Shown piece after piece: positions 1 to 15,764 of a stretch of 64,000 bases of DNA. Source of the stretch: Saccharothrix sp. Lineage in GTDB: Bacteria; Actinomycetota; Actinomycetes; Mycobacteriales; Pseudonocardiaceae. The translations under genes were made by a program, and so were the position numbers. The stretch is taken from assembly GCF_031180885.1 (NCBI RefSeq), contig NZ_JAPSLK010000010.1:62001-126000 (forward strand), written 5' to 3'. The notes below the pieces were generated by a model. That model was not told the DNA's origin and did not search any database. It was given only the letters and a program-made list of their open reading frames with translations. The first letter of the stretch is position 1, and the number at the start of each line of letters is the position of its first letter.

Positions 1-2
1 TG

Positions 3-1079
3 CTCGACCACGACGCCGTGCGGCCCCCGGTCCACGAGCACATCACCGACGCCGTCAAGGCACCCTCCCTCATCCGGCTCTCGCCCAACACCGTGCTGGT
101 CCGCTTCGAAACCCTGAAGGTGTACGCGGCGCTGGGAGCCGTGCGCCACCTGGTCGACAGCGGCGTGGTCCGCCGGGGGCAGACCGTGGTGGACAGCTCC
201 AGCGGCATCTACGCCCTCGCCCTGGCGATGGCGTGCCACCGCTACGACCTGCGCTGCCACATCGTCGCCTCCACCACCGTCAACGACACCATGCGCGCGC
301 AGTTGGAGATCCTGGGCGTGACCGTGGACCAGATGCCGCCTTCCGACGACCTGCGCCTGGACCAGAGCCGTCGGGTGGCCCGCGTGCAGGAACTGCTCTC
401 CCGGTATCCGGACATGTATTGGATGCGCCAGTACCACGACCCGGTGCACCACCTGGGCTACGCCGAACTGGCGGACCTGCTGCGGCGCGCGCTACCGGGC
501 GAACCGCTGACCGTCGTCGGCTGCGTCGGCACGGGGGCCTCTACCGGCGGTCTCACGCGGTCGCTGCGCGCGCACGATCCGCTGGTGCCATTGGTGGGCG
601 TGCAGCCGTTCGGCAGCGTGACCTTCGGCAGCGAGCGGTTCACCGATCCCGACGCCATCATCGCGGGCATCGGCAGCGCAATCCCGTTCGCCAACGTCCA
701 CCACCAGCTCTACGACCGCATCCACTGGTTGGACTTCCAGCACGCCATGGCCGCCACCGTCGACCTGATGCGCACGCACGCCGTGTTCGCCGGCCTGTCG
801 ACCGGCGCGGCCCACCTCGCCGCGACCTGGGAGGCCGCGCGGCACCCCGACCGCACCCACGTGGTCCTCGGCGCGGACACCGGTCACCGCTACACCGAAC
901 GCGTCTTCACCCGCCACCGCGAAGCCCTGGACCCCGCGTCGTTGCAGCCGGTGGAGATCGCCTCTTTGGACGAGCTGGCCCCGCCGTGGTCGGCGATCGA
1001 CTGGGCGCGCCGTGCTCACGGACCGGCCGTGCCCGTGCAGGAACGCCTCCGAGAGTTCAGGAAGGACCCCGTGCCATGA
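3..1079 (+). CDS. PLP-dependent cysteine synthase-like enzyme (5' end outside window)
   Basis: The frame is open to the left window edge, so the true start probably lies upstream; the first start inside the window is GTG at 18. The protein has the fold-type II PLP layout of the cysteine synthase family. The segment FETLKVY supplies the likely Schiff-base lysine (residue 34 counted from GTG 18). SSSGIYALALA matches the substrate-loop SSGNTGxALA motif with Asn-Thr changed to Ile-Tyr, and GCVGTGASTGG is the glycine-rich phosphate-binding loop. Relatives make cysteine or act in beta-replacement reactions, such as the SbnA-type step to 2,3-diaminopropionate. The altered Asn loop argues against an ordinary cysteine synthase. 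The stop overlaps the next start (ATGA), so it is translationally coupled to an ATP-grasp enzyme, which suggests synthesis of a small amino-acid-derived metallophore. The product is inferred, not shown. Confidence 0.8.
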   Translation, partial: LDHDAVRPPVHEHITDAVKAPSLIRLSPNTVLVRFETLKVYAALGAVRHLVDSGVVRRGQTVVDSSSGIYALALAMACHRYDLRCHIVASTTVNDTMRAQLEILGVTVDQMPPSDDLRLDQSRRVARVQELLSRYPDMYWMRQYHDPVHHLGYAELADLLRRALPGEPLTVVGCVGTGASTGGLTRSLRAHDPLVPLVGVQPFGSVTFGSERFTDPDAIIAGIGSAIPFANVHHQLYDRIHWLDFQHAMAATVDLMRTHAVFAGLSTGAAHLAATWEAARHPDRTHVVLGADTGHRYTERVFTRHREALDPASLQPVEIASLDELAPPWSAIDWARRAHGPAVPVQERLREFRKDPVP

Positions 1080-2263
1080 CCGTCGTGCTGCTGGAAGCCC
1101 TCACCTTCGGCCTGGGCCGCCTCGCCGACGCCGCGCGGGACGCGGGGCACGACCTCGTCCTGCTCACCGGCGACCGGACCATCTACCGCCACGAGCTGTC
1201 CCGCTGCGGCGACCGCGTGCGGGTGGTGGACGTCGACACCACCGACGTCGCCGAGTGCGAGAAGGCGTTGCGCGATCTGCCGGACGTGGCCGGGCTGATC
1301 AGCTCGACCGACACCTGGGCGGTGCCCGGCGCGGACCTGGCGCAGCGGCTGGGCCTGCCCGGACCGGCGCCGGCGGCGGTGCGGGTGCTGCGGGACAAGG
1401 CCGCCGTCCGGGCCCGGCTGCACGCCCACGGCCTGAGCCGCAGCGGTCCGCTCGACCCGGCCGCGGCGGAGGACTTCCCTTTGGTGCTCAAGGACTCCGC
1501 GGGCACCTCGTCCCGCGCGGTGTGGCTGTGCCGGACACCCGCCGAGCGTGACGCGGCCCTTCGCGAGGCCGCCGTCACCCCGCTCAAGGGCCGGTTGATC
1601 GCGGAACCGTACTTCGAAGGTCCTCTCTACAGCACCGAAACCGTCACCTGGCGGGGTGAAACCCGACTGCTCGGCGTGCTCAGCCGAGTGCTCTCGCCCG
1701 AACCCGTGCGCCGCGAGGAGGCTTCCGCGTTCCCGGTCGCCCTCCCCGACGCCGATCTCGCCGAGCTGGGGGAGTGGATCGGCCACGTGCTCAAAGCGGC
1801 CGGCCACGAAAGCGGCTTCGCGCACACGGAGTTCGTGTTCACCACCACCGGGCCCGAGGTGGTCGAGATCAACGCCCGCATCGGCGGCGCCCTCGTCGGC
1901 GAAGCCCTCTGCCGCGCCCTGGGCACCAACGTCTACGACGCGATGGTCCGCATCGCCCTCGGCGAACGACCCGACCTGCTCGACGGCGAACCGGGCGGCG
2001 GCACCGCGACCGGCTTCGTGGCGCTCTACCCCCGCGCGGCCGGGGTCCTGGAGGGGTGGACCGGCCTGGACCGCCTGGCCGACCTGCCCGGCAACCCCGA
2101 GTGGTACCCGACCGCGAGCCCCGGCGACGTGCTGGAGCACCTGACCGATCAGCGCTCCTGCACCGGCATCGTCGTGGCCGAAGGCCCCACCGCCGAGCTG
2201 GCGCTGCACCGGGCGCAGGCCGCCGCCGGCGGCATCACCCCCGTGGTCCGGGCGCACGACTAG
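1076..2263 (+). CDS. ATP-grasp domain ligase
   Basis: This 395-residue protein has the carboxylate-amine ligase ATP-grasp architecture: an N-terminal pre-ATP-grasp domain, a central lysine-containing nucleotide loop ([13 protein letters not shown]), and the C-terminal metal-binding signature [18 protein letters not shown], where the Glu and Asn coordinate Mg-ATP. Such enzymes activate a carboxylate as acyl phosphate and join it to an amine. ATG at 1076 overlaps the preceding stop, which fixes the start and indicates one operon with the PLP enzyme. Together they could build an aminocarboxylate or short peptide-like chelator. Similar single-domain ligases also make dipeptides, so the substrate cannot be named. 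No partner biosynthetic gene lies downstream; others may lie to the left of the window. Confidence 0.85.
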
Positions 2264-2293
2264 AGCACGGTGCGCGGTCGTGGGTGTCCGCGC

Positions 2294-2317
2294 GGTCGCG
2301 GTCGAGTCGCCGCGACC
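2294..2317. terminator. Hairpin between convergent genes
   Basis: Perfect 8-bp arms (GGTCGCGG and CCGCGACC) flank an 8-nt loop in the 70-bp gap between the ATP-grasp gene and the oppositely transcribed anti-sigma gene. The position suits a bidirectional terminator. There is no U-run, which is usual for high-GC actinomycetes. Confidence 0.4.
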
Positions 2318-2333: not shown

Positions 2334-3062
2334 TCAGGCGGCGCGTCGGTGATGCGCGCTGGGGCGCAGGTGACGTCGCTGCCTGCGGTTCCCGCCGGGA
2401 CGCGGGGTGGCGTCGACGCCGTCCCGGTCGTGGCGGTCGCCGCGGTCGTGGCCTTGCTCGGCGGGAGTGCCCGGGGTCGGCCGGCGCCGGTGGGCGCGGG
2501 CGACGAGGTAGAGCAGGACCAAGCCGGGCAGCAGGGGCAGGTGGGACACGACCCGGGCGGTGGTCGCGGTGCCGTCGAGCAGGTCGTTGACGGAGAACGC
2601 GACCAGCACCGCGACGAACCCGCCGAGCGTCGGCAGCAGGCCGGCCGCGCGGTGCTCGCTCACGGCGGCCACCAGCAGCCCGACGGCCAGCGCGAGGTTC
2701 CAGGCGATGCCCTCGTTGAACAGGTGGGTGGAGGTCCCGTGACCGGTGTCCCCGCCGGTCGCCCCGGCCAGCAACTGGGCCAACGAGAGCCACAACTGGA
2801 CGATGGCGACGGCGGCCAGCCCCAGGCGCGGGACCAGGGCGGTGTGGCGGGGTGGGGCGGCGGCCAGCACGGCGTCGACCAGGTCCGGCTCGGGCTCCGC
2901 GGGCCGGACGCGGATGGTCCTGGTCAGCGCCTGTGCGCTCGCCTGCCAGCGGGTGCAGGCGGCGCACTGTGCCAGATGCGCGTCCGTCTCGGCGGCGGGC
3001 ACGGGCTCGGCCTCGCCGTCCAGGCGGGCCGAGAGCGCTTCACGGCAGGATTGGCAGTCCAC
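2334..3062 (-). CDS. Zinc-finger (HC2-type) membrane anti-sigma factor
   Basis: This 242-residue protein starts with a zf-HC2/ZAS-type domain ([10 protein letters not shown], then [13 protein letters not shown]) with the spaced Cys, His and CxxC ligands. About four hydrophobic segments follow between residues ~75 and 195, then a basic Arg/His-rich cytoplasmic tail. This is the expected plan of a membrane anti-sigma factor that binds an ECF sigma through its N-terminal domain. A TGA lies directly before GTG 3062 in this frame, so that is the earliest start. It is divergent from the ECF sigma gene across 63 bp, whereas such pairs are usually co-transcribed. The signal it senses is unknown; the neighbouring transport genes make envelope or metal stress plausible. 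Confidence 0.75.
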
Positions 3063-3112
3063 TCACCAGTAGTCGCTCCATTCGGCTCACCGGTTCCCGA
3101 CACCACGTGGTT

Positions 3113-3127
3113 ACGATTCGGAATCGT
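3113..3127. promoter_or_regulatory. Perfect inverted repeat overlapping the sigma start
   Basis: ACGATTC-G-GAATCGT has 7-bp arms with a single-base spacer. It runs into the first two bases of the GTG start of the ECF sigma gene. It could be an operator or an mRNA structure masking the start. It lies in the divergent region shared with the anti-sigma gene. Confidence 0.45.
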
Positions 3128-3677
3128 GACAGCACCCGACGACGACGTCACCCGCTGGGCACTGGAGGCGCGTTCCGGTGACCGCGACGCACTGGAGCGG
3201 TTCGTCCGGGCGACCCAGCGCGACGTGTGGCGCTTCGTGGCCCACCTGGCCGGCGTGAGCCTCGCCGACGACCTGGCGCAGGAGACCTACGCCCGCGCCC
3301 TGCCCAGCCTGCGCCGCTTCGCCGGTCGCTCGTCGGCGCGCACCTGGCTGCTGGCGATCGCCCGCCGGGTCGTGGTCGACCAGATCCGGATGGCCCAGTC
3401 GCGTCCCCGGCTGTCCGCTGGTGCGGACTGGACGTCGGAGGCCGACCGCAAGGCGGTCGTCACCGGCTTCGAGGCCGTCGTGGAGCTGAACATGCTGCTC
3501 GACGCCCTCGACCCGGACCGCCGCGAGGCCCTGGTGCTGACCCAGGTGCTGGGTCTGCCCTACGCCGACGCAGCCGAGATCGCCGGTTGCCCGGTGGGCA
3601 CGATCCGCTCCCGGGTCGCGCGGGCCCGCGACGACCTGCTGCGCGCCACCGGTGACGAGGCCACCGAAGTGGGCTGA
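3126..3677 (+). CDS. ECF-family RNA polymerase sigma factor
   Basis: This 183-residue protein has sigma region 2 ([18 protein letters not shown], then [18 protein letters not shown]) and region 4 with a helix-turn-helix ([20 protein letters not shown]). There is no region 1 or 3, as in ECF sigmas. The frame stays open far upstream, but similarity to sigma factors begins right after GTG 3126, so I place the start there. It resembles the SigC-like group of short ECF sigmas. The divergent zinc-finger protein is the probable anti-sigma factor. A small membrane-protein ORF follows 27 bp downstream and may be co-transcribed. The regulon is not evident: I could not find a repeated -35/-10 pair in front of the neighbouring transport genes. 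Confidence 0.85.
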
Positions 3678-3918: not shown

Positions 3919-4611
3919 CTACTCGACCGTGGACGTGTGGGGTGGGTCCGTGCGCGAGTCCGTGCGCCGTCGACCCGGGAGAAGGAGCGTGTGGTCGGCC
4001 CAGCGGTCGAGGAGGGCGGTGTCGTGGGAGATGGCCAGCACGCCGGCTCCGGTGGCGTGCTGGTAGTCCCGGATGACCCCGACCAGCGCGGCGGTGGTGG
4101 AGGCGTCGAGCATGGTGGTCATCTCGTCGCAGATGAGGAACGCGGGGCGCAGCGTGAGGGCGCGGGCCAGGCAGGCGCGTTGCAGTTGGCCGTCGCTGAC
4201 CTCGTGGGCGCGGCGGCCGAGCAGGTCGGCGGTGAGCATGACGAGGTCGGCGAGTTCGTCGACCCGGTCGGGTGATCGGGTCGCGCGCAGCGGCTCGGCG
4301 ATGGCTTGCCGCAGGGTCATGCGCGGGTCGACGGAGAGTCGGGGTTGTTGGAACAGCACGCCGATGCGCGTGCGCAGGGCGCGTGGTGCCCGGTGCCGGT
4401 AGCGCGTGACGGGCGTGCCGTCGATGCGCACCGTCCCGCTGAAGGGCTTGTGCAGCAACGCGAGGACGCGCGCGAGCGTGGACTTGCCGCTGCCGCTGGG
4501 GCCGGCCACGCCCACGGTCTGTCCGGGGTGGACGGTGAGGCTGATGTCGGTGATCACCGGGTGGCGGTAGCCGGCGGTGATGTTCTCGGCGGTCAGCACG
4601 GCCGGTGGCAC
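3919..4611 (-). CDS. Opp/Dpp-type ABC transporter ATP-binding protein (second ATPase)
   Basis: This ABC ATPase of about 230 residues has Walker A GPSGSGKST, Q-loop LFQQP, an ABC signature in the form VSDGQLQRACLARAL (LSGGQ changed to VSDGQ), Walker B AFLICDEMTTMLD and the H-loop histidine in AISHD. It lacks the C-terminal oligopeptide-transporter extension seen in its partner. The start is either GTG 4611 or GTG 4599, both overlapping the end of the preceding ATPase gene and therefore coupled. It is the last gene of a five-gene operon (binding protein, two permeases, two ATPases) that imports a peptide-like or metal-chelate substrate, comparable in layout to Opp, Nik or Cnt systems. Confidence 0.85.
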   Translation of the reverse strand: MPPAVLTAENITAGYRHPVITDISLTVHPGQTVGVAGPSGSGKSTLARVLALLHKPFSGTVRIDGTPVTRYRHRAPRALRTRIGVLFQQPRLSVDPRMTLRQAIAEPLRATRSPDRVDELADLVMLTADLLGRRAHEVSDGQLQRACLARALTLRPAFLICDEMTTMLDASTTAALVGVIRDYQHATGAGVLAISHDTALLDRWADHTLLLPGRRRTDSRTDPPHTSTVE

Positions 4612-5516
4612 GCTACGGCGTGTTCGTCGTCGGTGAGGGCTGGGCGTTCGGCGCAGATCGGGGCGACCCGGTCGCATCGCGGGGCGAAGGAACACCCGGC
4701 CGGCAGGTCGGTGAGCAGCGGCGGCTGTCCGGGGATCGGGGTGAACGCGCGGTCGGGCAGCGCGTTGCCGAGTCCTTTGCTGTAGGGGTGCAGGGGTGTT
4801 TCGAGGACTTTGCGGGCGGGGCCGATTTCGATGACGCGGCCCGCGTACATGACGGCGACGCGGTCGGCGACCCGTTGTGCGGCGGCGAGGTCGTGGGTGA
4901 TGAGCAGGACGGCGTGGCCGGCGGTGACCATGCGGCGGAACTCCTCGATGAGGCTGTCGACGAGGTGGCGGTCGAGGCCGGTCGTGGGTTCGTCGGCGAC
5001 GAGCAGCCACGGGTCGCCGACGAGGGCGAGTGCGTTGGCGACCCGTTGGGCCATGCCGCCCGACAACTGGTGGGGGTAGCGGTCGATGTCCTCGGGCGAA
5101 AGGCCCGCGCGTGCCGCGACGGCGTCCGCGGTGTGCGGGGACCGGTGGACGCGGATGGCTTCCTCGATCTGGGCGCGGGCGGTCCGGACCGGGGTGAGGT
5201 GGGAGGCCGGGCTCTGCGGGACGAGGCCGATGCGGCGGCCCCGGACGGTGGTGGCGAGTTCCCGGTCGGTGGCGGTCAGCAGGTCGAGTTCGGGTCCGTC
5301 GCCGCGCAGCGTCGCGGTGCCGGCCGTTTCGGCGTTGCCGGGCAGGAACCCGAGCAGGGCGTTGGCGAGCACGGTCTTGCCGCAGCCGCTTTCGCCGACG
5401 AGCGCCAGGCACTCGCCGGGCCGCAGGCTCAGCGACACGTCGTCGACCGCGGCGACGGTGGCGCCGGGCAGGGTGAACCGGACGCGGACGCGGTCGAGCA
5501 CGAGTTCGGTCACCAT
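4593..5516 (-). CDS. Opp/Dpp-type ABC transporter ATP-binding protein (first ATPase)
   Basis: This 307-residue ATPase has Walker A GESGCGKT, Q-loop LVPQSP, signature LSGGMAQRV, Walker B WLLVADEPTTGLD and H-loop LITHD. The C-terminal CSFAPRCDRVAPIC extension is the Cys-containing oligopeptide-transporter tail typical of OppD/DppD. ATG 5516 overlaps the stop of the permease gene before it, giving a tightly coupled operon. It energises uptake of whatever the family-5 binding protein captures. Confidence 0.9.
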   Translation of the reverse strand: MVTELVLDRVRVRFTLPGATVAAVDDVSLSLRPGECLALVGESGCGKTVLANALLGFLPGNAETAGTATLRGDGPELDLLTATDRELATTVRGRRIGLVPQSPASHLTPVRTARAQIEEAIRVHRSPHTADAVAARAGLSPEDIDRYPHQLSGGMAQRVANALALVGDPWLLVADEPTTGLDRHLVDSLIEEFRRMVTAGHAVLLITHDLAAAQRVADRVAVMYAGRVIEIGPARKVLETPLHPYSKGLGNALPDRAFTPIPGQPPLLTDLPAGCSFAPRCDRVAPICAERPALTDDEHAVACHRPC

Positions 5517-6391
5517 GTCAGCTCCGTGCGGCGCTTGGGGTTGAGCCGGTCCCGCCACACGCCGCCGACACCGGAGACGGCGAGGGTGGCGGCGATCAGG
5601 ACCAGGCCGGGCGCCAGTGACATCCACCAGCCGCCGGTGAGCAGGGACCGCTGGGCGTCGTTGATCATGTTGCCGATGCTGGCCGCGTGCGGGGGCAGGC
5701 CGAGGCCCAGGAACGACAGCGCGGTCTCGTGCCACACCGCGTGCGGCACGGCCAGGGTGGTGGCGAGCAGCACCTGGGGCGCGACGTTGGGCAGCAGGTG
5801 CCGCACCAGCACGCGGGTGCGCGACGAGCCGCCGACGATCGCCGCGTCGATGAACGGCCTGCCGCGCAGCGAGAGCACCTCCGAGCGCACGATCCGCGCC
5901 GAGGACAGCCAGTGCGTCAGCCCGATCGAGATGACGACCGCGGTCAGGCTGGGGCGCAGTACGGCGACGATCACGATGCCCAGCAGCAGGTGCGGCACCG
6001 AGGCGACGGCGTCGACCAGCCGCATCAGCAACCGGTCCACCCAGCCGCCCACCGCACCGGCCAACGCGCCCAGGGCCGTGCCGAGCACGGACGAGATCAG
6101 CGCGGCGACCAGCCCGACGGTCATGGACACGCGCAACGCGTAGACGCAGCGCAGCATCACGTCCCGGCCGAGTTCGTCGGTGCCGAACGGGTGCCGCGCC
6201 GAGGGCGGGCGGTTCGCGGCGGCGAGGTCGACGTACTGCTGGTCGAGGTCCACCACGAGCGGCACGACCAGCACCGCCGCCGCGAGCACGCCGAGCACCA
6301 CCGCCGACGGGATCAGCCGCCACCGCGGCGACCGGGGTGCGGCGGCGGCGAGGCGGGACCGCGGCGCGCGGCGCCAGGCCAGGTCAGCCAT
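5510..6391 (-). CDS. Opp/Dpp-type ABC permease (DppC-like)
   Basis: This 293-residue membrane protein has an N-terminal helix (residues ~28-48), the OppC-specific segment HPFGTDELGRDVMLR, and the permease core with the EAA-like loop (DAAIVGGSSRTRVLVRHLLP) that contacts the ATPases. About six membrane helices are expected. ATG 6391 lies inside the end of the upstream permease gene (8-bp overlap). It pairs with the DppB-like permease to form the channel of the metallophore/peptide importer. Confidence 0.9.
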   Translation of the reverse strand: MADLAWRRAPRSRLAAAAPRSPRWRLIPSAVVLGVLAAAVLVVPLVVDLDQQYVDLAAANRPPSARHPFGTDELGRDVMLRCVYALRVSMTVGLVAALISSVLGTALGALAGAVGGWVDRLLMRLVDAVASVPHLLLGIVIVAVLRPSLTAVVISIGLTHWLSSARIVRSEVLSLRGRPFIDAAIVGGSSRTRVLVRHLLPNVAPQVLLATTLAVPHAVWHETALSFLGLGLPPHAASIGNMINDAQRSLLTGGWWMSLAPGLVLIAATLAVSGVGGVWRDRLNPKRRTELTW

Positions 6392-7361
6392 CGAGCACCA
6401 CCCTCGGGTCGGCCAGCGCGTAGAGCACGTCGGCGAGCAGGTTGCCCAGCAGCACCACCGCCGTCGCGAGCACGGTCAGCGCGCCGAGCAGCGCGAAGTC
6501 GACGTTGAGCGCCGCGTCCACGGTCGCCCGTGCGATGCCCGGCCAGGAGAACACGGTCTCCACCAGCAACGCCCCGGTGATCAGCTCCGGCAGTCGCGCG
6601 CCGAGCAGGGTGAGGAACGGCAGCAGGGAGGTGCGCAGGGCGTGCCCGGAGACCACGAGGTGGTCGGGCAGGCCGCGCGAGCGCGCGCCGACCACGTGGT
6701 CCTGGGTGAACGACTCCAGCAGGTTCTGCCGGACGAACAGCACGAACCACGGCGCCTGCGAGATCGCCAGCACCGAGACCGGCAGCACCAGGTGCGTGGC
6801 GACTTGCCCGAACGACACCGGGGCGTCGGCGTCGGTGAGCCCGCCGCCGGGCAGCCACCGCAGGTGCAGCGCGAACACGTACAGCGCGGCCAGCCCCAAC
6901 CAGAACACCGGCGCGGCTTCGAGCGTGTAGGAGGTGGCGGTGATCAGCCGGTCCAGCCAACTGCCCTGCAACCACGCCGCCGCGGTGCCCAGGAGCAGGC
7001 CGAGCAGCAGCGCGAGGGTGAACCCGATCGCGACCAGCAGCACCGACCAGCCCAGCCGGTCGCCGATCACCTGCGACACGGGCTGCTGGAACGACAGCGA
7101 GTCGCCGAAGTCGAAGGCGACCGCGTGCCGCAGCCACGCCAAGTACTGCTCGACCACCGGCTGGTCGACGCCCCAGTTCGCGCGGATCTGCGCGACCCGT
7201 TCCGGCGAGGCGCCGATGATCCGCACGCCGAAGTAGCGCTCGACCGGGTCGAAGGGCGAGGCCTTCGCCAGCACGAACAACGCGAAGCTCACCAGCAGCA
7301 GCACCGGGACCGCGAAGCCGAGCCGGCGCAGCACGAGTTTGCCGACACCGCGGTCGCTCAC
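6384..7361 (-). CDS. Opp/Dpp-type ABC permease (DppB-like)
   Basis: This 325-residue protein begins with the OppB-type N-terminal helix and periplasmic segment (LARLG-like region replaced by VLRRLGFAVPVLLLV) and the ...IRANWGVDQPVVEQYLAWL motif. The permease core with its EAA loop (GARSRGLPDHLVVSGHAL) follows. The frame stays open upstream, but GTG 7361 overlaps the stop of the binding-protein gene as GTGA, which is the convincing start. It forms a heterodimeric channel with the DppC-like subunit. Confidence 0.88.
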   Translation of the reverse strand: MSDRGVGKLVLRRLGFAVPVLLLVSFALFVLAKASPFDPVERYFGVRIIGASPERVAQIRANWGVDQPVVEQYLAWLRHAVAFDFGDSLSFQQPVSQVIGDRLGWSVLLVAIGFTLALLLGLLLGTAAAWLQGSWLDRLITATSYTLEAAPVFWLGLAALYVFALHLRWLPGGGLTDADAPVSFGQVATHLVLPVSVLAISQAPWFVLFVRQNLLESFTQDHVVGARSRGLPDHLVVSGHALRTSLLPFLTLLGARLPELITGALLVETVFSWPGIARATVDAALNVDFALLGALTVLATAVVLLGNLLADVLYALADPRVVLDG

Positions 7362-8944
7362 GACTTGGGCGTCCACTTTTCGAGGTTCCACCACGCCGCG
7401 TGGATCAGGCCGTGGTCGTGCGGCTCGACCTGGGTCTGCCGGCCGTCCCACTTGTCGCGCAAGACGTAGGTGTGGTCGAGGAACACCAGGAACGCCCAGC
7501 CGGGGTCGGCGACGTAGGCCCGCTGGAAGTCGGTGTAGGCCTGCTTGCGGGCGACGGGGTCCAGCGACCTGCGCGCGGTGTCCAGCGCGGCGTCCACCGC
7601 CGGGTTGCGGTACAGCGTCATGTTCACGTAGCCGTCCTGGCCCGCGTACTTGGAGTGCAGCAGCGTGTACGCCGCGGTGTCCGGGTCGTAGGGGTCGCCG
7701 CCGCCCCAGACCGCCGCGGCGTCCTTCTGCCGTTGCAGCATGATCTCGAACGTGGTCGCCTCGACCGGCGCCTCGACACCGAGCTTGGCGATGTCGCTCG
7801 CCGCGGCCAGCGCGAGTTCCTTGCGCAGCACGTCCGGCGCCGGGTACAGGACGGGCAGCCGCGCCGGTTGACCGTTTTTGGCGCGCTTGCCGTCCGCGCC
7901 CCGGTGCCACCCGGCCTCGTCGAGCAGGCGCTCGGCCTCGGCGACGTCGCGGGGGAACGTCGCGCCGGTGTCGTGCCAGTCCGCGAGGTGCGGCGAGATC
8001 GGTGTGGCGGCGGGCGTCCCGGCGCCGGCGAGCACGGCGTCGATCATCGCCCGGCGGTCGATGGCGAGGTTGATCGCGCGCCGGACCCTGGCGTCGGAGG
8101 TGAACGGCGACTCGGACGGCAGGCCGAGGCCGCGGTAGTCCGCGGACGGGTTCCGCACGACCTGGTAGCCGGGCTTGCCGGTGTAGGTCCTGGCCAGCTT
8201 CGGCGGCAGCACCGTGCCGTCGAACTCGCCGGCGGCCATCCGGGTGGCGCGGGCGTTGTCGTCCGGCACGAACACCACGGTCACCGTCTTGATCGCGGGC
8301 GCGCCGCCCCAGTGGTCCTCGTTGGCCTTCAACACCATCCGGTCGCCCTTGCGCCACTCGGCGACGGTGTAGGGGCCGGTGCCGACCGGGGCGGTGTTGA
8401 AGGGCGCGCTGTTGATGTCGGCGCCTTCGAGCTTCGCGCGCGGGACGATGCCCAGCGTCAACTGCTGCGCGAACGGCGCGTACGGGTGGGACAACCGGAA
8501 CTCGACGGTCCGGTCGTCGGGTGCGGTGACGTCGGCGAGGGCGTCGAACCTCGACGCGATGGTGGAGTTGACCTTCTGGTCCAGCACGGACTTGTAGGTG
8601 AACACCACGTCGTGGGCGGACAGGGCCGAGCCGTCGGAGAAGGTGACCCCGTCCTTGAGCTTCGCCGTCCAGGTCAGACCGTCCGCGGACGCGGTCGGGA
8701 CCTGTTCGGCCAACGCGGGAACCAGGGCGAGCTGCGCGTCGCGGGCGACCAGGCCGTCGAAGATCTTCGACGCGCCGTCCGGGCCGTAGCCGAGGATCGG
8801 GTTGAGGTTCTCCGGTTCGCTGCCCGCCCCGATGACGATGGACTGCCCGGTGTTCGCGGTGCCGCCTCCGTCGGGGGAGGTGCACGCCGCCACGAGCCCC
8901 GCCGCCACGACGACGGCGATCATCGGTCCACGGCGCACGCGCAT
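7358..8944 (-). CDS. Family 5 extracellular solute-binding lipoprotein
   Basis: This ~529-residue protein has a lipoprotein signal: a short basic N-terminus, a hydrophobic core and the lipobox VAAC (Cys near residue 21). The SBP_bac_5 fold follows, with GSEPENLNPILG and FNTAPVGTGPYTVAEW as family landmarks. Members bind peptides, nickel chelates or metallophores such as the CntA substrate. ATG 8944 is preceded by GTG 8947 and a very close GAGG, so the exact start is uncertain by one codon. It heads the operon with both permeases and both ATPases. Its neighbours (aztABCD, ATP-grasp/PLP enzymes, MFS exporter) suggest the ligand is a zinc-loaded chelator; a simple peptide remains possible. Confidence 0.87.
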   Translation of the reverse strand: MRVRRGPMIAVVVAAGLVAACTSPDGGGTANTGQSIVIGAGSEPENLNPILGYGPDGASKIFDGLVARDAQLALVPALAEQVPTASADGLTWTAKLKDGVTFSDGSALSAHDVVFTYKSVLDQKVNSTIASRFDALADVTAPDDRTVEFRLSHPYAPFAQQLTLGIVPRAKLEGADINSAPFNTAPVGTGPYTVAEWRKGDRMVLKANEDHWGGAPAIKTVTVVFVPDDNARATRMAAGEFDGTVLPPKLARTYTGKPGYQVVRNPSADYRGLGLPSESPFTSDARVRRAINLAIDRRAMIDAVLAGAGTPAATPISPHLADWHDTGATFPRDVAEAERLLDEAGWHRGADGKRAKNGQPARLPVLYPAPDVLRKELALAAASDIAKLGVEAPVEATTFEIMLQRQKDAAAVWGGGDPYDPDTAAYTLLHSKYAGQDGYVNMTLYRNPAVDAALDTARRSLDPVARKQAYTDFQRAYVADPGWAFLVFLDHTYVLRDKWDGRQTQVEPHDHGLIHAAWWNLEKWTPKS

Positions 8945-9062
8945 CACCCTCGGTCGGAGTAGGTCGACTGTTGCCGCGTGCAGCTAACAGCAAATCACCT
9001 GCAACAAGCAAGGGTGTGCGGGAGCGATGTGGGCGACATGGCCGGGACGCCGCGTGACCGCC

Positions 9063-9761
9063 TCATGTCCGCAGCCGCTCCACCGGAAGGTGCTGGAGGA
9101 CGGCGGTCGGGTCGCCCTCGGCGACCGGTCGGCCGTTGTCCAGCAGCAGGCAGTGGTCCGCCCGTGAGGCCTCGTCCAGGTCGTGGGTGACGTGGACGAC
9201 CGTCACGCCGTCGGCCCGTGCGTCGGACAGCGCGGCGGAGATGTCGCGCCGGGCCCGGGAGTCCAGGCCGGCGTCCGGTTCGTCGAGCAGCAGCAGGTCG
9301 GACTCCTGCGCGAACGCCTGCGCCAGCAGGGCGCGCTGGCGTTGCCCCCCGGACAGGGTGCTCAGCCGGCGCGACGCGAGATCGGCGATGCCCAGCCGCT
9401 CCAGGCAGGACCGCACCACGTCTTTGTCCTTTGTGGAGAGTCGTCGCCACGCACCCCGGTGTGCCCATCTGCCCATGGCGACCGTTTCCCACACGGTGAT
9501 CGGCAGCCCGGTCGGGACCGCGCTGTGCTGCACCACGAAGGCGGGGCGTCGCGTCCTGATCTCCACGGTGCCCGCGGCGGGGGTGATGACGCCGGCGAGG
9601 ACGCCCAGCAGCGTGGACTTGCCGGAGCCGTTGTGGCCCACGACCGCCGTCACCTTGGCGCGCGGCAGTTCCGCGCTCACCTCGTGCAGCACGGTGTGCC
9701 GGGCGTAGCCGGCCGACAGTCCGAGCAGCCGCACGGCCGGTTGGTCCGAGTTCTGCGTCAC
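9063..9761 (-). CDS. aztA: Zinc ABC transporter ATP-binding protein AztA
   Basis: This 232-residue ABC ATPase has Walker A GHNGSGKST, Q-loop VVQHS, signature LSGGQRQRALLA, Walker B LLLLDEPDAGLD and H-loop HVTHD. Length and sequence fit the ATPases of metal (zinc/manganese) ABC importers. I take GTG 9761 with an upstream GGAG as the start. It is transcribed divergently from aztB, with a Zur-like inverted repeat in the gap, so the whole importer should respond to zinc. The assignment to the Azt system rests on the neighbouring aztC and aztD. Confidence 0.85.
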   Translation of the reverse strand: MTQNSDQPAVRLLGLSAGYARHTVLHEVSAELPRAKVTAVVGHNGSGKSTLLGVLAGVITPAAGTVEIRTRRPAFVVQHSAVPTGLPITVWETVAMGRWAHRGAWRRLSTKDKDVVRSCLERLGIADLASRRLSTLSGGQRQRALLAQAFAQESDLLLLDEPDAGLDSRARRDISAALSDARADGVTVVHVTHDLDEASRADHCLLLDNGRPVAEGDPTAVLQHLPVERLRT

Positions 9762-9782: not shown

Positions 9783-9799
9783 AACGAAAATCGTTTCCA
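9783..9799. promoter_or_regulatory. Zur-like operator between aztA and aztB
   Basis: AACGAAAATCGTTTCCA contains the perfect inverted repeat AACGA-AAA-TCGTT. It fills the 45-bp divergent gap between aztA and aztB. It matches the site in front of the MFS exporter at 13 of 17 positions. Fur-family Zur repressors bind AT-rich palindromes of this general form in actinobacteria. The regulator itself is not in the window. Confidence 0.65.
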
Positions 9800-9806: not shown

Positions 9807-11810
9807 GTGCCGCTCGTGGAGTGGTTGCTTACCCCTTTCGAGGTGTCGTTCGTGCAGCGGGCGTTGTGGGCCGGCGTGCTGGTGTCGTGCCTGTGCGCGG
9901 TCGCCGGGACGTGGGTCGTGTTGCGCGGCATGGCGTTCCTCGGTGACGCGATGTCGCACGGCATGCTGCCCGGCGTCGCGATCGCGTCGTTGTTGGGCGG
10001 CAACCTGTTCCTCGGCGCCGCGGCGAGTGCGGGCGCGATGGCGTTCGGGGTCACCGCACTCGGGCGGTCCCGGCGGTTCTCCCAGGACACCGGCATCGGG
10101 CTGCTCTTCGTGGGGATGCTCGCGCTGGGCGTGATCCTCGTGTCGCACTCCGAGTCGTTCGCGGTGGACCTGACCGCGTTCCTCTTCGGCGACGTGTTGG
10201 CCGTGCGCGCGCGGGACCTGGGCTATCTCGCCGTGGCGTTGGCGGTCGCCGCGCCGGCGGCGCTGTGGGGGCACCGCGCGTTCGTGGCGCTGACCTTCGA
10301 CCCGCGCAAGGCGCAGACGCTGGGGATGCGCCCGCGGCTGGCGCACGCGGTGCTGCTGGGCCTGGTGACCCTGGCCATCGTGGCGTCGTTCCAGGTGGTC
10401 GGCACGTTGCTGGTGTTCGGTCTGCTCATCGCGCCACCGGCCGCCGCGACGTACTGGGCGCGCCGCATCCCGACGATCATGCTCGGCGCGGCGGTGCTGG
10501 GCGTGACCGCCACCGTGGCCGGTCTGCTCGTCTCGTGGCACGCGGGCACGGCCGCGGGCGCGACCATCGCGCTGATCGCCGTCGTGCTGTTCTTCCTTTC
10601 CGCGCTCGGTGCCCGGGTGCGTGACCGGGTGCGGCTGCCCGGTGCGGGTGGGCAGCACGCGGTGCTGCTCGCCGTGCTGGTCGTGGTGCTGCCGCCGGCC
10701 GGCTGCGGCACCGAGCCGGCTCGGGAGGAGGTGCCGCACGGCTATGTCGAGGGTGCCGAGGAGACGGCGGAGGCACAGCCCCGTCTGGTCGTGGCCGACG
10801 ACCGCACCGGCGCGGTCCGGGTCGTCGACCTGATCACCGAGGAGGTGACCGACGTCGGCCGGGTGGACGGTGTCCGGGCGATCACCGGCGACGGCCGTTT
10901 CGCGTACCTGACCGGTGCGGGATCGGTGCGGATCGTCGACAGCGGCGCCTGGATGGTCGACCACGGCGACCACGTCCACTACTACCGCGCCCGCGCCAGG
11001 GAGGTCGGTTCCGTCCCGGGGGACGCGGTGGTGAACGCGGACAGCGACCCCACCGTCGCGGCCGTGGCGCTCGGCCGCGGCGACACGACCTTGTTGGACC
11101 GGCAGGGCCTCGACGGCGGCGCGGTGACCACCCGCGGGGAACCGCTTGGCGGGATCGCGCTGCCCTACGCCGAACACCTGCTGGTGGCGGCATCCGATCG
11201 AGTGGCGGTCAAGACGAGGGACGGCGGGGACGTGACGACGATCGAGCAAGCGTGCCAGAGCCCGCGCGGCCAGGCGGTGACCCGGAAGGGCGTGGTCTTC
11301 GGCTGCGCCGACGGGGCGCTGCTGGTGACGGCGAAGGACGGTTCCTTCACCGGCGAGAAGATCCCGTACCCGCGTGCCGTGCCGGAGGCCGAGCGGGCCG
11401 TCGAGTTCCGCCACCGGCCCGGCAGCACGACGCTCGCCGCGCGGGCGGGGGACCTCGGCGCCTGGGCGCTGGACGTGCGGGCGAAGACGTGGACGCTGCT
11501 GCCGATCGGGCCGGTCGTCGCGGTGAACGCGGTCGGCGAGGCGGGGCCGCTGCTGGCCCTGACCGCGGACGGTGTGCTGCACGGCTACGACGCCAAGTCC
11601 GGCACGCCGATCGCGCAACGCCGAGTGCTCTCCGCGCCCATCGCCGAGGGCGGCGCACCGCCGGTGATCGAAGTGGACCCGAACCGCGCCTACGTCAACG
11701 ACGCCGGGGTGCGAGCGGTCCACGAGATCGACTACAACGACGGCCTGCGGGTCGCCCGGACGATCCGGCTGGAGATCGAGCCGGCGCACATGGTGGAGAC
11801 CGGCCGGTGA
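9807..11810 (+). CDS. aztB: AztB zinc permease fused to an AztD-like propeller domain
   Basis: The 667-residue frame has two parts. Residues ~1-280 are a complete metal ABC-3 permease: about eight helices, with GDAMSHGMLPGVAIA and the conserved LVFGLLIAPPAAA. Residues ~290-305 form a further hydrophobic segment ending in the lipobox-like PPAGC. The rest is a beta-propeller-like domain resembling the AztD metallochaperone encoded two genes later, including a His-rich stretch (DHGDHVHYYRA). Typical AztB proteins end after the permease. No stop separates the parts, so this is a fusion, although internal GTG codons near 10627 might also give a separate lipoprotein. GTG 9807 or GTG 9816 is the start; no ribosome site is seen, so the mRNA may be leaderless. 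The end overlaps aztC (GTGA). Confidence 0.82.
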   Translation: MPLVEWLLTPFEVSFVQRALWAGVLVSCLCAVAGTWVVLRGMAFLGDAMSHGMLPGVAIASLLGGNLFLGAAASAGAMAFGVTALGRSRRFSQDTGIGLLFVGMLALGVILVSHSESFAVDLTAFLFGDVLAVRARDLGYLAVALAVAAPAALWGHRAFVALTFDPRKAQTLGMRPRLAHAVLLGLVTLAIVASFQVVGTLLVFGLLIAPPAAATYWARRIPTIMLGAAVLGVTATVAGLLVSWHAGTAAGATIALIAVVLFFLSALGARVRDRVRLPGAGGQHAVLLAVLVVVLPPAGCGTEPAREEVPHGYVEGAEETAEAQPRLVVADDRTGAVRVVDLITEEVTDVGRVDGVRAITGDGRFAYLTGAGSVRIVDSGAWMVDHGDHVHYYRARAREVGSVPGDAVVNADSDPTVAAVALGRGDTTLLDRQGLDGGAVTTRGEPLGGIALPYAEHLLVAASDRVAVKTRDGGDVTTIEQACQSPRGQAVTRKGVVFGCADGALLVTAKDGSFTGEKIPYPRAVPEAERAVEFRHRPGSTTLAARAGDLGAWALDVRAKTWTLLPIGPVVAVNAVGEAGPLLALTADGVLHGYDAKSGTPIAQRRVLSAPIAEGGAPPVIEVDPNRAYVNDAGVRAVHEIDYNDGLRVARTIRLEIEPAHMVETGR

Positions 11811-12721
11811 CACCGACGACTCGACTCCTCACGGCGGCCTGCGCCCTGCTGCTGGTGCTCGCCGGGTGCGGCACCGGGAACGGGCAGCGCGACGGGATCG
11901 TGGTCACCACCAACATCCTCGGTGACATCACCCGCCACATCGTCGGTGACGCCGCGCCGGTCACGGTGCTGATGAAGCCCAACGCCGACCCCCACTCGTT
12001 CGCGATCTCCGCGCAGGAGGCCGCACGGCTGGAAAGCGCCGCGCTGGTCGTCTACAACGGACTCGGGTTGGAGGAAGGTGTCCTGCGGCACGTCCAGGCG
12101 GCCGAACAGGCCGACGTGCCGACCCTGTCGGTGGGCGACCACATCGACCCGATCAGCTACACCGCCGAGGACGCCGCGGGCCGGCCGGACCCGCACTTCT
12201 GGACCGACCCGAAGCGCGTGCGCCGGGCGGTCGAGGTGATCGGCGAGCGCGTCATCGAACACGTCGACGGCGTCGACGCCGACGCGGTCCGGGCCAACAC
12301 CGCGCGCTACCTCGCCGAGATCGACGAACTCGACCGCTGGACCGGCGAGCGGTTCGCGACGATCCCGGCGCAGCGCCGCAAGCTGGTCACCAACCACCAC
12401 GTCTTCGGCTACCTCGCCCAGCGCTTCGGCTTCGAGGTCGTCGGCGCCGTGATCCCCAGCGGCACGACGCTCGCCTCGCCCAGCGCCTCCGACCTGGCCT
12501 CGCTCGCGCAAGCCGTCCGCACGGCGGGCGTCGGCGCGATCTTCGCCGACTCCTCCCAACCCGACCGCCTGGCCCGCGTGCTCGCCGAGCAGGCCGGGGT
12601 GCACGTCCGGGTCATCCCCCTGCACTCGGAGTCGCTCACCGCGGCGGGCGGCGGAGCGGCGACCTACGTCGAGATGGCGCGCGCCAACACCGAGGCCATC
12701 GTGCGCGGCCTCACCCCATGA
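11807..12721 (+). CDS. aztC: Zinc-binding lipoprotein AztC
   Basis: This 304-residue cluster A-I (ZnuA/TroA family) metal-binding protein has a lipobox LAGC near residue 20. The expected metal ligands are visible: PNADPHSF, HFWTDPKR, the TNHHVFGYLAQRFG loop and the C-terminal Asp in IFADSSQP. It lacks the long His/Asp-rich loop of ZnuA, as is usual for AztC, which obtains zinc from AztD. GTG 11807 overlaps the aztB stop. It delivers zinc to the AztB permease at the outer face of the membrane. Confidence 0.9.
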   Translation: MTPTTRLLTAACALLLVLAGCGTGNGQRDGIVVTTNILGDITRHIVGDAAPVTVLMKPNADPHSFAISAQEAARLESAALVVYNGLGLEEGVLRHVQAAEQADVPTLSVGDHIDPISYTAEDAAGRPDPHFWTDPKRVRRAVEVIGERVIEHVDGVDADAVRANTARYLAEIDELDRWTGERFATIPAQRRKLVTNHHVFGYLAQRFGFEVVGAVIPSGTTLASPSASDLASLAQAVRTAGVGAIFADSSQPDRLARVLAEQAGVHVRVIPLHSESLTAAGGGAATYVEMARANTEAIVRGLTP

Positions 12722-12756: not shown

Positions 12757-13923
12757 ATGACAAGCTGGTCGCGAACGCGGACGACCGCAGTGGCGTCCGC
12801 AGTGGCCTCAGCGCTCGTCCTGGCCGGATGCGGCGCGGAGCGGCAGGCCCAACCGCCCGCCGCGGTCCCGGCCCCGGTGGCCGAACCGGTCGCCGTCACC
12901 TATGACGGCGGGATCTACGTGCTGGACGGCAAGACCCTCGAAGTCAAGGCCGACGTCAGGTTGGAAGGATTCAACCGGCTCAACCCCGCCGGTGACGACC
13001 GGCACCTGATGGTGTCCACGTCCAGCGGGTTCCGGGTGCTCGACGCCGCCGGCGGCAAGCTGACCGACGTCGAGTTCCCCGGCGCGGAGCCCGGCCACGT
13101 GGTCCGGCACGCCGGGCGCACGGTGCTGTTCACCGACGGGACCGGCGAGGTCCGCGTCCTCGACCCGGCCACGTTGACCGGTGCGGAGCGGAAGGTCGAG
13201 ACCTACAAGACCGCCGAGCCGCACCACGGTGTCGCGATCGAGCTGGCCAACGGAGAGCTGGTCGTCACCCTCGGCAACAAGGACAAGCGCGTCGGGATCG
13301 CGGTCCTGGACAAGGACCGCAAGGAGATCACCCGCAACGAGGACTGCCCCGGTGTCCACGGCGAGGCGACCGCCAAGGACGAGGTCGTCGTCATCGGCTG
13401 CCAGAACGGTGTGCTGATCTACCGCGCCGGGACGATCACGAAGGTGCAGAGCCCCACCCCGTACGGCCGGATCGGCAACCAGGCGGGCAGCGACCACTCC
13501 CCGATCGTCCTCGGCGACTACAAGCAGGACGCCGACGCCGAACTGGAACGGCCCACGCGGATCTCGCTGATCGACACCACGACCGGCACCCTCAAGCTCG
13601 TCGACATCGGCGCCAGCTACACCTTCCGCTCGCTGGCGCGCGGCCCGCAGGGTGAGGCGCTGGTGCTCGGCACCGACGGCAAGATCCACGTGATCGACCC
13701 CGTCAAGGCCGAGGTCACCCGCACCATCCCCGTCACCGACACGTGGCAGGAACCCCTGGAGTGGCAGCAGCCGCGGCCGGCCATTTTCGTCCGGGGCGGC
13801 ACGGTCTACGTGTCGGACCCGAACAAGCAGCAGCTGCACCGCATCGACCTCGCCGAGGGGAAGGTCACGGCGACGGCGTCGTTGTCCCGCAAGCCGAACG
13901 AACTCAGCGGCGTCACCGCCTGA
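12757..13923 (+). CDS. aztD: Zinc metallochaperone AztD
   Basis: This 388-residue lipoprotein has lipobox LAGC and a beta-propeller of repeated short blades (YDGGIYVLDGKTLEV, FRVLDAAGGKLTDV, VRVLDPATLTG). Conserved His-containing segments (AEPHHGVAI, PGVHGEAT, AGSDHSPIVL) match the AztD family, whose members hand zinc to AztC. The start is ATG 12757, with an AGAGGAAG ribosome site. It is the last gene of the aztBCD operon and is followed by a strong hairpin. The fused domain of AztB looks like a divergent second copy. Confidence 0.9.
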   Translation: MTSWSRTRTTAVASAVASALVLAGCGAERQAQPPAAVPAPVAEPVAVTYDGGIYVLDGKTLEVKADVRLEGFNRLNPAGDDRHLMVSTSSGFRVLDAAGGKLTDVEFPGAEPGHVVRHAGRTVLFTDGTGEVRVLDPATLTGAERKVETYKTAEPHHGVAIELANGELVVTLGNKDKRVGIAVLDKDRKEITRNEDCPGVHGEATAKDEVVVIGCQNGVLIYRAGTITKVQSPTPYGRIGNQAGSDHSPIVLGDYKQDADAELERPTRISLIDTTTGTLKLVDIGASYTFRSLARGPQGEALVLGTDGKIHVIDPVKAEVTRTIPVTDTWQEPLEWQQPRPAIFVRGGTVYVSDPNKQQLHRIDLAEGKVTATASLSRKPNELSGVTA

Positions 13924-13937
13924 GCACCATCGTCAGT

Positions 13938-14180: not shown

Positions 14181-14347
14181 CGGGGCAGTGGGTCACGCTG
14201 CGTCGGACGCGCGGAGGGTCTGGATGTGCGTTGCCCGCTCGCCGGTGTGGGCGTCGCGGGCAGGCCGGTCGGCACGAGCGCGCCCGCGTCGGCGAGGACC
14301 TGTGGCGGCGGGGTCGGTGGCCGTGACGCGGGCGGGGACGACGCCGG

Positions 14348-15574
14348 TCACCGCGCGGCCCGGAAGCCGCGTGCCGAGGGCACGAGCGCGGCGGCGGCGG
14401 GTGCGGCGAAGCAGATCACCGCGCAGGCCGCCAGGACGGGCGTGGGGCCGAACCAGTCGATCGCGGGCGCGATGACCGCCAGGCCGACGGGGGCGAGGCC
14501 GTAGGACAGCAGGAAGTCCAAAGAGGACACCCGGGCGAGCATCCGCGGGTCCACCTCGCGCTGGGTGGCGGTGAACCACGGCACGTTGAACAGTTCGATG
14601 CCCACCCCGGCCAGGACGTAGGCCGCGACGACCACCGCCGCCGGGACGGGCAGCAGGAGGCTCAGCGGCGCGAACCCGTAGCAGGCCAGGCCCGCGAGGG
14701 CGGCCCAGCCCGGGGCGCGGGGCTTCCAGCGGGCGATGAGCACCGCGCCGACGAGGGCGCCGACGGTGTAGGCGGTCAGCGCGGCGGCGAGCACGGCTTC
14801 GGTGCCGTAGCGGTCGCGGCTGACCAGGGGCAGCACCACGCCGGTGGCGGAGTAGCCGGTGGCGATCACCGCGGTCAGGGCGCCGAGCCCGGCGAGGAAC
14901 CAGGGGTGCCTGCGGGCTTCGCGGATGCCGTCGAGGAAGTCCGCGGTGAAGCGGGTCTTGGTGCCCGGCTCCGCGGGAGCCCGGTCGGCTCCGGCCGGTG
15001 GGATCAGGGCGGCGCACAGCCACAGCGCGCCGGTGGCGATCAGCAGGACGTGAGTGTCGACCAGCACGGCGAGCAAAGCGGTCAGGCCCGGTGCCACGAG
15101 GGTGGTGACCCGCACGGCGAGGGTCATGGCGGCGTTGGCCTGCTGCCGCTGGTCCTCGGCGACGACTTCGGCGGTCAGCGCCTGGAACGCGGGCCGGCAG
15201 GCCCCTTGCCCGGCTCCCACGACCGCGGCGGCCACCGCCATCACCACCACCGATCGCCCGACGCCGAACGCGATCACCGGTGCGGCGACGCCTGCGACCA
15301 GTCCCGCCCACAGCACTACCCGGCGGCGGGAGTGCCGGTCGGCCAGGACCCCGGCCACGGGGACGGCGGCGAGGAAACCGGCGGTGCGGGCGGCCAGGAC
15401 GACGCCGAGTTCGACCGCGCTGATCGACCGCTCCAGCACGGCCAGGCCGAGGATGAACGGCAGGGCCCAGGTCGCCATGCCGGACGCCGTGGTGCCCGTC
15501 CAGAGCCGGAGGAAGGACAGGCTGCGGAACACGGATGTCGACGGTGTCGCGGCCGGGGCGGCGTCCTGCACCAC
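14348..15574 (-). CDS. MFS exporter, probably of a metallophore
   Basis: This protein of about 408 residues has roughly 12 membrane helices and MFS signatures (VPVAGVLADRHSRRRVVLW between helices 2 and 3). It resembles the EntS-like major facilitators that export siderophores or drugs. The open frame begins at 15616, inside an operator, but AGAGGAG at 15580-15586 lies 5 nt before GTG 15574, so I start there. A Zur-like site at 15604-15620 lies 30 bp upstream. Together with the Opp-type importer and the ATP-grasp/PLP enzymes, this suggests export of a zinc chelator, analogous to CntE in staphylopine systems. A general drug-efflux role cannot be excluded. Confidence 0.8.
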   Translation of the reverse strand: MVQDAAPAATPSTSVFRSLSFLRLWTGTTASGMATWALPFILGLAVLERSISAVELGVVLAARTAGFLAAVPVAGVLADRHSRRRVVLWAGLVAGVAAPVIAFGVGRSVVVMAVAAAVVGAGQGACRPAFQALTAEVVAEDQRQQANAAMTLAVRVTTLVAPGLTALLAVLVDTHVLLIATGALWLCAALIPPAGADRAPAEPGTKTRFTADFLDGIREARRHPWFLAGLGALTAVIATGYSATGVVLPLVSRDRYGTEAVLAAALTAYTVGALVGAVLIARWKPRAPGWAALAGLACYGFAPLSLLLPVPAAVVVAAYVLAGVGIELFNVPWFTATQREVDPRMLARVSSLDFLLSYGLAPVGLAVIAPAIDWFGPTPVLAACAVICFAAPAAAALVPSARGFRAAR

Positions 15575-15603
15575 GCGGACTCCTCTTCGCAGGGGCTTGC
15601 TTT

Positions 15604-15620
15604 TGGTAATGATCATCGTT
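15604..15620. promoter_or_regulatory. Zur-like operator upstream of the MFS exporter
   Basis: TGGTAATGATCATCGTT; its complement AACGATGATCATTACCA aligns with the aztA/aztB site. The near-palindrome AATGAT-C-ATCGTT has one mismatch. It lies just upstream of the exporter start and also overlaps the start of a short rightward ORF. Confidence 0.6.
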
Positions 15621-15764
15621 CAGGGTGGCGGTGCCGTCGTCGAGGTTTGGAGGGACTTGGACGGTCCCGCCGATGTCCGGCTCGGCCACCCCGTGTTCCA
15701 CCACTACTACGACCCCGTCCCGGCCGACCTGCGCCCCGCGTTCGTCGCCCGCACGCCCTGGTGA
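15609..15764 (+). CDS. Short ORF with His-rich segment, function unknown
   Basis: ATG 15609 opens a 51-residue frame containing GHPVFHHYYDPVPADLRP and ending in ARTPW. I recognise no family. The start lies inside the Zur-like site, so it would be leaderless or begin at GTG 15696. It could be a zinc-responsive peptide, the tail of a decayed gene, or a chance frame. Confidence 0.3.
   Translation: MIIVQGGGAVVEVWRDLDGPADVRLGHPVFHHYYDPVPADLRPAFVARTPW

Follow-up and report, generated by a model that had tools for sequence, protein, structure and literature searches.

A PLP/ATP-Grasp Gene Pair of Saccharothrix in a Putative SigC-Type Copper-Acquisition Regulon, with Nickel-Like and Zinc Systems as Apparent Neighbors

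Introduction

The first 15,764 positions of a 64,000-nucleotide stretch of Saccharothrix sp. DNA (the window; G000:C111:62001-126000 in a 9.46 Mb genome) encode a pyridoxal phosphate (PLP)-dependent enzyme, an ATP-grasp ligase, an Opp/Nik-type ATP-binding cassette (ABC) importer, the zinc importer AztABCD, and a major facilitator superfamily (MFS) transporter. Do these genes form one system? A first-pass annotation read them as a single zincophore locus, with synthesis, export, chelate uptake, and Azt import side by side. Judged from sequence, the stretch instead looks like three regulons: the PLP/ATP-grasp pair with SigC-type genes, the Opp/Nik importer with a nickel-like character, and AztABCD plus the MFS transporter for zinc. 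The annotated interval probably bisects a SigC-type metallophore locus, with copper as its probable metal, and takes in two further systems for metals besides.

In Mycobacterium tuberculosis, SigC guards against copper starvation and switches on ctpB, which encodes a P1B-ATPase, along with the ppe1-nrp operon (PMC7924339); the nrp products are described as chalkophores (PMC9600254). Because the pair sits among SigC-type promoters, and SigC runs copper acquisition in M. tuberculosis, our best reading, to which we assign a probability of roughly 0.57, is that the pair belongs to a copper-acquisition regulon under a SigC-type extracytoplasmic function (ECF) sigma factor and that the locus makes a copper metallophore, the metal being one that we infer. 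Among the open PMC papers that a search listed, no title or abstract concerned a cassette of this kind.

Results and Discussion

The pair lies at the left edge of the window. Genomes, contigs, and loci are cited by G, C, and L numbers, and a window coordinate is the L009 coordinate minus 12000.

1..1079, + strand, GTG start one base left of the window (L009:12000): PLP-dependent SbnA/cysteine-synthase-like enzyme, PALP Pfam 115 bits
1076..2263, + strand: ATP-grasp L-amino-acid-ligase-like enzyme, PF18603 LAL_C2 64.6 bits (cut-off 29.4)

The ATP-grasp start at 1076 falls inside the PLP gene, which ends at 1079, and this ATGA overlap is consistent with the translational coupling noted before. 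The closest named relatives of the PLP enzyme, among the matches listed, are from Saccharothrix, and the genome holds one PLP enzyme of this family only. Of the named families, SbnA of staphyloferrin B and CmnB, which act in diaminopropionate synthesis, are among the nearest in sequence: the best PDB matches are 9k2p and SbnA by both sequence and profile search, with CmnB next in the latter. The enzyme scores 135 bits against TIGR03945 SbnA, far under the cut-off of 349.95, and has no SbnB neighbor. The single PF02423 (OCD-family) gene of the genome is on C74, not C111, so free diaminopropionate via the SbnA/SbnB route is not indicated. An AlphaFold model of the PLP enzyme (predicted local distance difference test score, pLDDT, 77; 28 sequences) is fitted about equally by O-ureidoserine synthase, its best fold match, CysK, and SbnA. 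The ATP-grasp protein is of the L-amino acid ligase type by domain (LAL_C2) and by fold (model pLDDT 91.8, top match L-amino acid ligase 3vot), and would be a candidate for dipeptide-forming activity. Among NCBIfam models, PRK02186 (labeled argininosuccinate lyase) matches it best, over the first 389 of the model's 890 positions and far under cut-off. We note that a 23-codon open reading frame (ORF) left of the window (L009:11923-11994, start ATGACCCTG) ends at the PLP ribosome-binding site; by eye, similar short ORFs precede the PLP gene in several genus loci, and this one is possibly a leader or a peptide substrate.

Leftward extension of the window, suggested by the first-pass annotation as a source of more biosynthetic genes, yielded a methyltransferase and a cytochrome P450. 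A FecBCD-type importer is encoded divergently from the PLP gene: its FecCD permease scores 238 bits, and its other components are an ABC ATPase and a binding protein of the Peripla_BP_2 family. Farther left are the genes for the methyltransferase and the P450, followed by one for a membrane protein of the CopD/Caa3_CtaG type and one for a heavy-metal P-type ATPase (CopA), which exceeds the copper-translocating P-type ATPase cut-off (509 vs 397 bits). The CopD protein (627 residues) contains a Caa3_CtaG domain and a subthreshold CopD match, and it may resemble Rv0102. The small-molecule metallophore logic proposed for the region is sustained by this content, namely, an SbnA-like PLP enzyme, an amino-acid ligase, an exporter, and an ABC importer. 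On the right, an anti-sigma/ECF-sigma gene pair (2334-3677) separates the PLP/ATP-grasp genes from the Opp importer.

2334..3062, - strand: zf-HC2 anti-sigma-type protein, PF13490 33.9 bits; probably membrane-bound, as read from its sequence
3072..3098, - strand: SigC-type promoter of the anti-sigma gene, GGGAACC-N16-CGAC
3126..3677, + strand: ECF sigma factor, SigC type by best PDB match
G000:C111:61825-61851, ∼150 bp before the start: SigC-type promoter of the PLP gene, GGGAACC-N16-CGAC

The best PDB match of the sigma factor is M. tuberculosis SigC (2o7g, 112 bits; best non-SigC entry, 58 bits). Against NF007231 SigC it scores 213.4 bits, just short of the cut-off of 219; this is the top score among the 83 models matched.

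The motif GGGAACC-N16-CGAC is shared by upstream regions of Saccharothrix loci. Its exact form occurs 25 times in the genome, compared with 8 matches to the backwards pattern, and 6 of the 25 fall within 14 kb (C111:51099-65098). Five of these six precede the genes for CopD, the methyltransferase, FecCD, the PLP enzyme, and the anti-sigma protein; the sixth is at the 3′ end of copA. A motif of this type inside the copA 3′ end is seen in two genomes, at L009:1125(-) and L175:1332(-), with no downstream gene identified. The anti-sigma-type site also stands beside sigC in six other loci (L036, L053, L072, L176, L177, and L178).

Conservation of the motif was scored in relatives, taken as the best 80 of 477 stretches that encode a relative of the PLP enzyme (all named, from 14 genera, with some loci cut by contig ends). 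The relaxed form, GGGAAC-N17-CG[AT]C, was sought in the 250 bp that precede a gene for the methyltransferase, the PLP enzyme, FecCD, OppA, or ATP-grasp; the methyltransferase start could be located in 64 of the 80 loci. At N16 spacing the relaxed motif is present in 55 of 72 non-Saccharothrix loci, including 11/11 from Amycolatopsis, 26/41 from Streptomyces, and 3/5 from Actinokineospora, and in at least one locus of each of the 14 genera. Other spacings give 0-4 of 72, except N13 with 14, all of which are CGxCGxC overlaps of N16 matches. The strict motif is found in 30 of the 72 loci at N16 and at no other spacing save N13 (14).

The link to copper genes was followed in a genus comparison of 25 genomes, own included. 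CopD orthologues (≥69%) occur in nine of them, again own included, and in six cases a SigC homologue is found no more than 15 kb away. The other three (G006, G015, and G023) all have the motif just upstream, and two orthologues have both a nearby SigC homologue and the motif. Gene content, the motif and its conservation, SigC/copper-gene linkage, and the lack of a Zur box at the pair (below) were all computed directly. At the level of sequence, then, a copper P1B-ATPase and small-molecule genes share one motif in company with a SigC-type sigma factor. The M. tuberculosis SigC regulon, with ctpB and the ppe1-nrp diisonitrile chalkophore operon, likewise joins a P1B-ATPase and a small-molecule pathway under SigC, so by analogy the same logic may apply here. 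The Saccharothrix locus differs in having PLP, ATP-grasp, and methyltransferase genes in place of NRPS (nonribosomal peptide synthetase)/isonitrile enzymes, and also in its FecBCD importer and its anti-sigma protein of the zf-HC2 type.

Several observations weigh against a SigC-driven copper locus. Four of the six local sites served to define the motif and are not independent, because it was first read from this locus. In the tested windows, 17 of 72 loci lack the relaxed motif (15/41 Streptomyces and 2/5 Actinokineospora). A bare CG as the -10 element weakens the spacing contrast (N16 55, N12 30, N13 23), and 13/72 loci still score when these windows are read on the wrong strand, some of the hits lying between divergent genes. 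Two further SigC-like sigma factors in the genome (64% and 55%) are also candidate readers of the motif. Copper genes are rarely near the cassette in relatives (CopA homologue in 4/119 loci and CopD in 5/119, own included), PLP and ATP-grasp genes are separated in two genus genomes (G015 and G021), and IdeR-like sites occur in 3 of 99 loci scanned (L096, L114, and L146). Finally, L039 has a Zur-boxed MFS/FecBCD block beside the pair, which makes a zinc link possible.

How the cassette is composed in relatives bears on its function. Within the genus the ATP-grasp gene (E 1e-60) is present in 17 of 25 genomes, and we read 20 kb around 18 ATP-grasp places (17 genus and 1 family) plus two distant paralogues. 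All-against-all BLAST clusters of the ORFs lost sharpness through antisense ORFs and ORFs extended at the N terminus; the families kept are those re-found by direct tblastn. The PLP gene adjoins ATP-grasp in 16 of the 18 places, with a partial match in L035 and none in L041 and L044. A FecBCD-type importer with orthologous subunits (78-93%) stands beside the pair in L032, L033, L034, L036, L037, L038, L040, L042, and L044; less similar FecCD/FecE genes are found in L039, L043, L045, L048, and L049, and FecCD fragments in L035. No such importer is present beside ATP-grasp in the 20 kb read for L041, L046, and L047. L035 (G003) is a second copy of the pair that is apparently decaying, with its fragmented FecCD and partial PLP match. 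Two other genus genomes carry a distant PLP/ATP-grasp pair (29-33% identical; L050 and L051). A class-wide count with four candidates scored per genome gave at least 8 of 394 genomes.

Of the 80 named loci, 78 have ATP-grasp together with the PLP gene and 76 have the methyltransferase; 39 encode a sigma homologue. As for transport, 34 loci include a FecCD permease and 7 an Opp-type importer, and the MFS transporter of the window is present in 1; AztB, AztC, and AztD are found in none. This variation in importer type, FecCD or Opp by lineage, would fit a metallophore for another metal or several (iron, nickel, cobalt, or mixed copper and zinc), as would the 20 of 119 loci with a ferric-reductase-like gene and an MFS gene that has a Zur-like box in some genomes and immediately follows sigC in others (L046, L047, L056, and L057). 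We consider this alternative unlikely: IdeR-like sites are as scarce as given above, Nur-like sites occur in 4/99 loci (two from one species), and the metal genes found with the same promoter are of the copper type. An iron siderophore was rejected on the scarcity of IdeR-like sites.

Zinc control of the pair fares no better. For Zur sites we searched with TGAAAATGATTTTCA, which we take to be the consensus. No box with up to three mismatches was found in 97 of the 99 cassette loci scanned, the exceptions being L039, at its MFS/FecB block, and L126. None was found at the PLP/ATP-grasp pair or its FecBCD importer, in the own locus or in relatives, and we do not place the pair in a Zur regulon. 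Zinc as the metal of this unit, proposed in the first-pass annotation, is not supported; the unit has SigC-type promoters instead.

For the copper-acquisition reading, we infer the metal, the product, each catalytic step, and the direction of transport as follows. When copper is scarce, the anti-sigma protein would release SigC, which would transcribe from GGGAACC-N16-CGAC the genes for the anti-sigma protein itself, the methyltransferase, the PLP/ATP-grasp pair, the importer of the FecBCD type, and CopD/CtaG-CopA. In the synthesis, the PLP enzyme may attach a nucleophile to the β-carbon of a serine-derived aminoacrylate, in the manner of SbnA, CmnB, or O-ureidoserine synthase, and the ATP-grasp ligase would join the resulting amino acid to another through an amide bond. 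The methyltransferase, and possibly the P450 also, would complete a small copper ligand. An MFS transporter would export the ligand, FecBCD would reimport the copper complex, and CopA and CopD/CtaG would pass copper to cuproenzymes.

The same enzymes could make a small peptide antibiotic or signal, with SigC merely coupling its synthesis to copper or envelope stress. Sets of PLP, ATP-grasp, and MFS genes make cycloserine and dapdiamide-type compounds, and the fold match of the PLP model to O-ureidoserine synthase points the same way. Against an antibiotic or signal stand the ABC importers, whether FecBCD- or Opp-type, and the copper genes that carry the same promoter motif, and we rate it the least probable of the alternatives. 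We return to copper acquisition as the preferred reading, in which the cassette is likely an uncharacterized copper-scavenging gene set common to many soil actinobacteria. If so, SigC-driven copper acquisition, worked out in M. tuberculosis, would extend to many soil actinomycetes, and a compact three-gene pathway, with 477 stretches encoding a PLP relative in one genome collection, would have been named in strains amenable to laboratory culture and gene deletion.

The remaining parts of the annotated interval have neighbors and boxes of their own. The Opp importer follows the sigma factor gene.

3919..4602, - strand: Opp/Nik-type ATPase, ABC_tran; best NCBIfam model NikE, under cut-off
4593..5516, - strand: Opp/Nik-type ATPase, ABC_tran and oligo_HPY
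5510..6391, - strand: Opp/Nik-type permease C
6384..7361, - strand: Opp/Nik-type permease B
7358..8947, - strand: SBP_bac_5 binding protein, PF00496 296 bits
8980..9012, - strand: TTGC-type box before the binding-protein gene, CTTGCT..TTGCA..TTGCTGTTAGC, from by-eye comparison with L065-L069

It had been described as an Opp/Cnt-type importer. The Opp half of that description stands for 3919-8947, read as Opp/Nik-type, where Nik/Opp models give the top scores, all under cut-off (binding protein against TIGR02294 NikA, 191 bits; cut-off 393). The Cnt half does not: scores against the staphylopine models are far under their cut-offs (CntA 106 vs 800, CntC 130 vs 440, CntD 149 vs 380, and CntF 150 vs 385 bits). 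The likeness to staphylopine Cnt stops at the importer family, and the importer here carries a separate box and shows no linkage to the pair in the four relatives with both. That box, conserved in six genomes, own included, is possibly Nur (nickel)-like. Five genus genomes (G002, G005, G012, G015, and G017) have an OppA orthologue (79-87%). Four of them, all but G012, also have the pair; the two are near each other in none of the four. The role of chelate importer for the pair, assigned to Opp at first, is rejected for this genus on that ground, and the importer is better placed in a putative separate, nickel-like neighboring regulon. The idea is sound for other actinomycete families, because in L097, L106, L126, and L137 the ATP-grasp and PLP genes flank a distantly related Opp-type importer (27-44%), with SigC-type motifs nearby. 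The seven Opp-type loci counted above are these four, L105, and, via OppC/OppD, L131 and L147; a lone OppD in L144 was not counted.

The MFS transporter closes the interval.

14348..15576, longest ORF from 15616, - strand: MFS transporter, probable exporter, PF07690 121 bits
15601..15624, - strand: Zur/Fur-like box before the MFS gene, in a near-identical block in L039 and L052

That an MFS protein is present, as annotated, is clear, and in the genus its gene keeps company with sigC or with a PLP gene of this family, which lends some support to an export role; export itself would be its predicted direction. Counting orthologues at ≥70% identity, with three genomes holding 43-47% matches left out, it is present in 14 of 25 genomes, every one of which also has a PLP enzyme of this family (itself in 20 of 25). 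Ten of the 14 orthologues are within ∼15 kb of such a PLP gene, three are beside a sigC homologue, and one is alone. Other Zur-like forms precede the MFS gene in L054 and L059-L061; none was seen before it in L046, L047, L053, L056, and L057. It is plausible that the transporter exports the product of the window's pair under mixed control.

Five genus genomes contain Zur-boxed clusters (L052 and L058-L061) with a 57-59% paralogue of the PLP enzyme, FecBCD-type genes, the MFS gene, and a HemK-like methyltransferase. L052 adds DUF364 (putative heavy-metal chelation), L058 a RimK-type ATP-grasp and a Fur protein, and L059 a GHMP kinase beside an anchored-repeat surface protein, a family that we assume to be zinc-linked. 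Their five PLP enzymes group in a single well-supported clade, whose neighbors are those of L049 and L146, two loci that do have ATP-grasp; no ATP-grasp of the window's family was found in the five loci. These clusters are candidate true zincophores. They may resemble the EDDS (aes) system of Amycolatopsis japonicum, for which zinc-dependent regulation is reported in a paper cited by PMC6103462.

We can now weigh whether the pair itself makes a zinc chelator that the Zur-controlled MFS transporter exports and that chelate uptake and Azt return as zinc. The Zur-like boxes at azt and the MFS gene favor it, as do the company of this transporter in the Zur-boxed clusters (one of them beside a zinc-type surface protein), the block adjoining the pair in L039, and the presence of a single PLP enzyme of the family in the genome, so that the transporter may serve it. 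Against these, the pair and its FecBCD importer have SigC-type promoters and no Zur boxes here and in relatives, the Zur-boxed PLP enzymes are a separate clade, and neither Azt nor Opp stays with the pair elsewhere: AztD is found in G005 and G019, of which just G005 holds the pair, ∼266 kb away. A zincophore is rejected as the best reading of the whole interval because the pair has SigC-type promoters without a Zur box; the intervening sigma pair and the scattering of pair, Opp, and Azt in relatives likewise speak against one zincophore locus. We regard the zincophore alternative as improbable.

With SigC-driven copper acquisition as the preferred reading, we tentatively propose, at short of even odds, a new actinobacterial metallophore class in which an SbnA-like PLP enzyme, an ATP-grasp ligase, and a methyltransferase make the ligand instead of NRPS or NIS (NRPS-independent siderophore) enzymes. 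Its enzyme family would be split into SigC/copper and Zur/zinc branches with exporters in common and interchangeable importers (FecBCD or Opp), and the SigC-type and Zur-type versions would form a test pair.

AztABCD was correctly recognized: all four subunits exceed their NCBIfam cut-offs.

9063..9761, - strand: aztA, NF040873 262 bits (cut-off 220)
9785..9799, no strand assigned: Zur-like box between aztA and aztB, 3 mismatches to the consensus
9807..11810, + strand: aztB, NF040871 381 bits (cut-off 280)
11807..12721, + strand: aztC, NF040870 395 bits (cut-off 350)
12757..13923, + strand: aztD, NF038015 512 bits (cut-off 400)

Unlike the known transporter, AztB is fused in a single ORF to an AztD-like domain (NF038015 on residues 329-664) with a lipobox-like junction, and the full-length fusion is retained in the two azt relatives, L062 and L063. 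Both also keep the Zur-like element (4 and 3 mismatches, respectively). The Zur-like sites predicted earlier at aztA/aztB and the MFS gene are upheld as predicted sites, and by these boxes both would belong to a Zur regulon. The consensus picks up boxes at azt and in L058-L061, all Zur-type clusters; at 4 mismatches it also does so in L052 and L062. A second Zur-like match in the window is at position 44574, with 3 mismatches.

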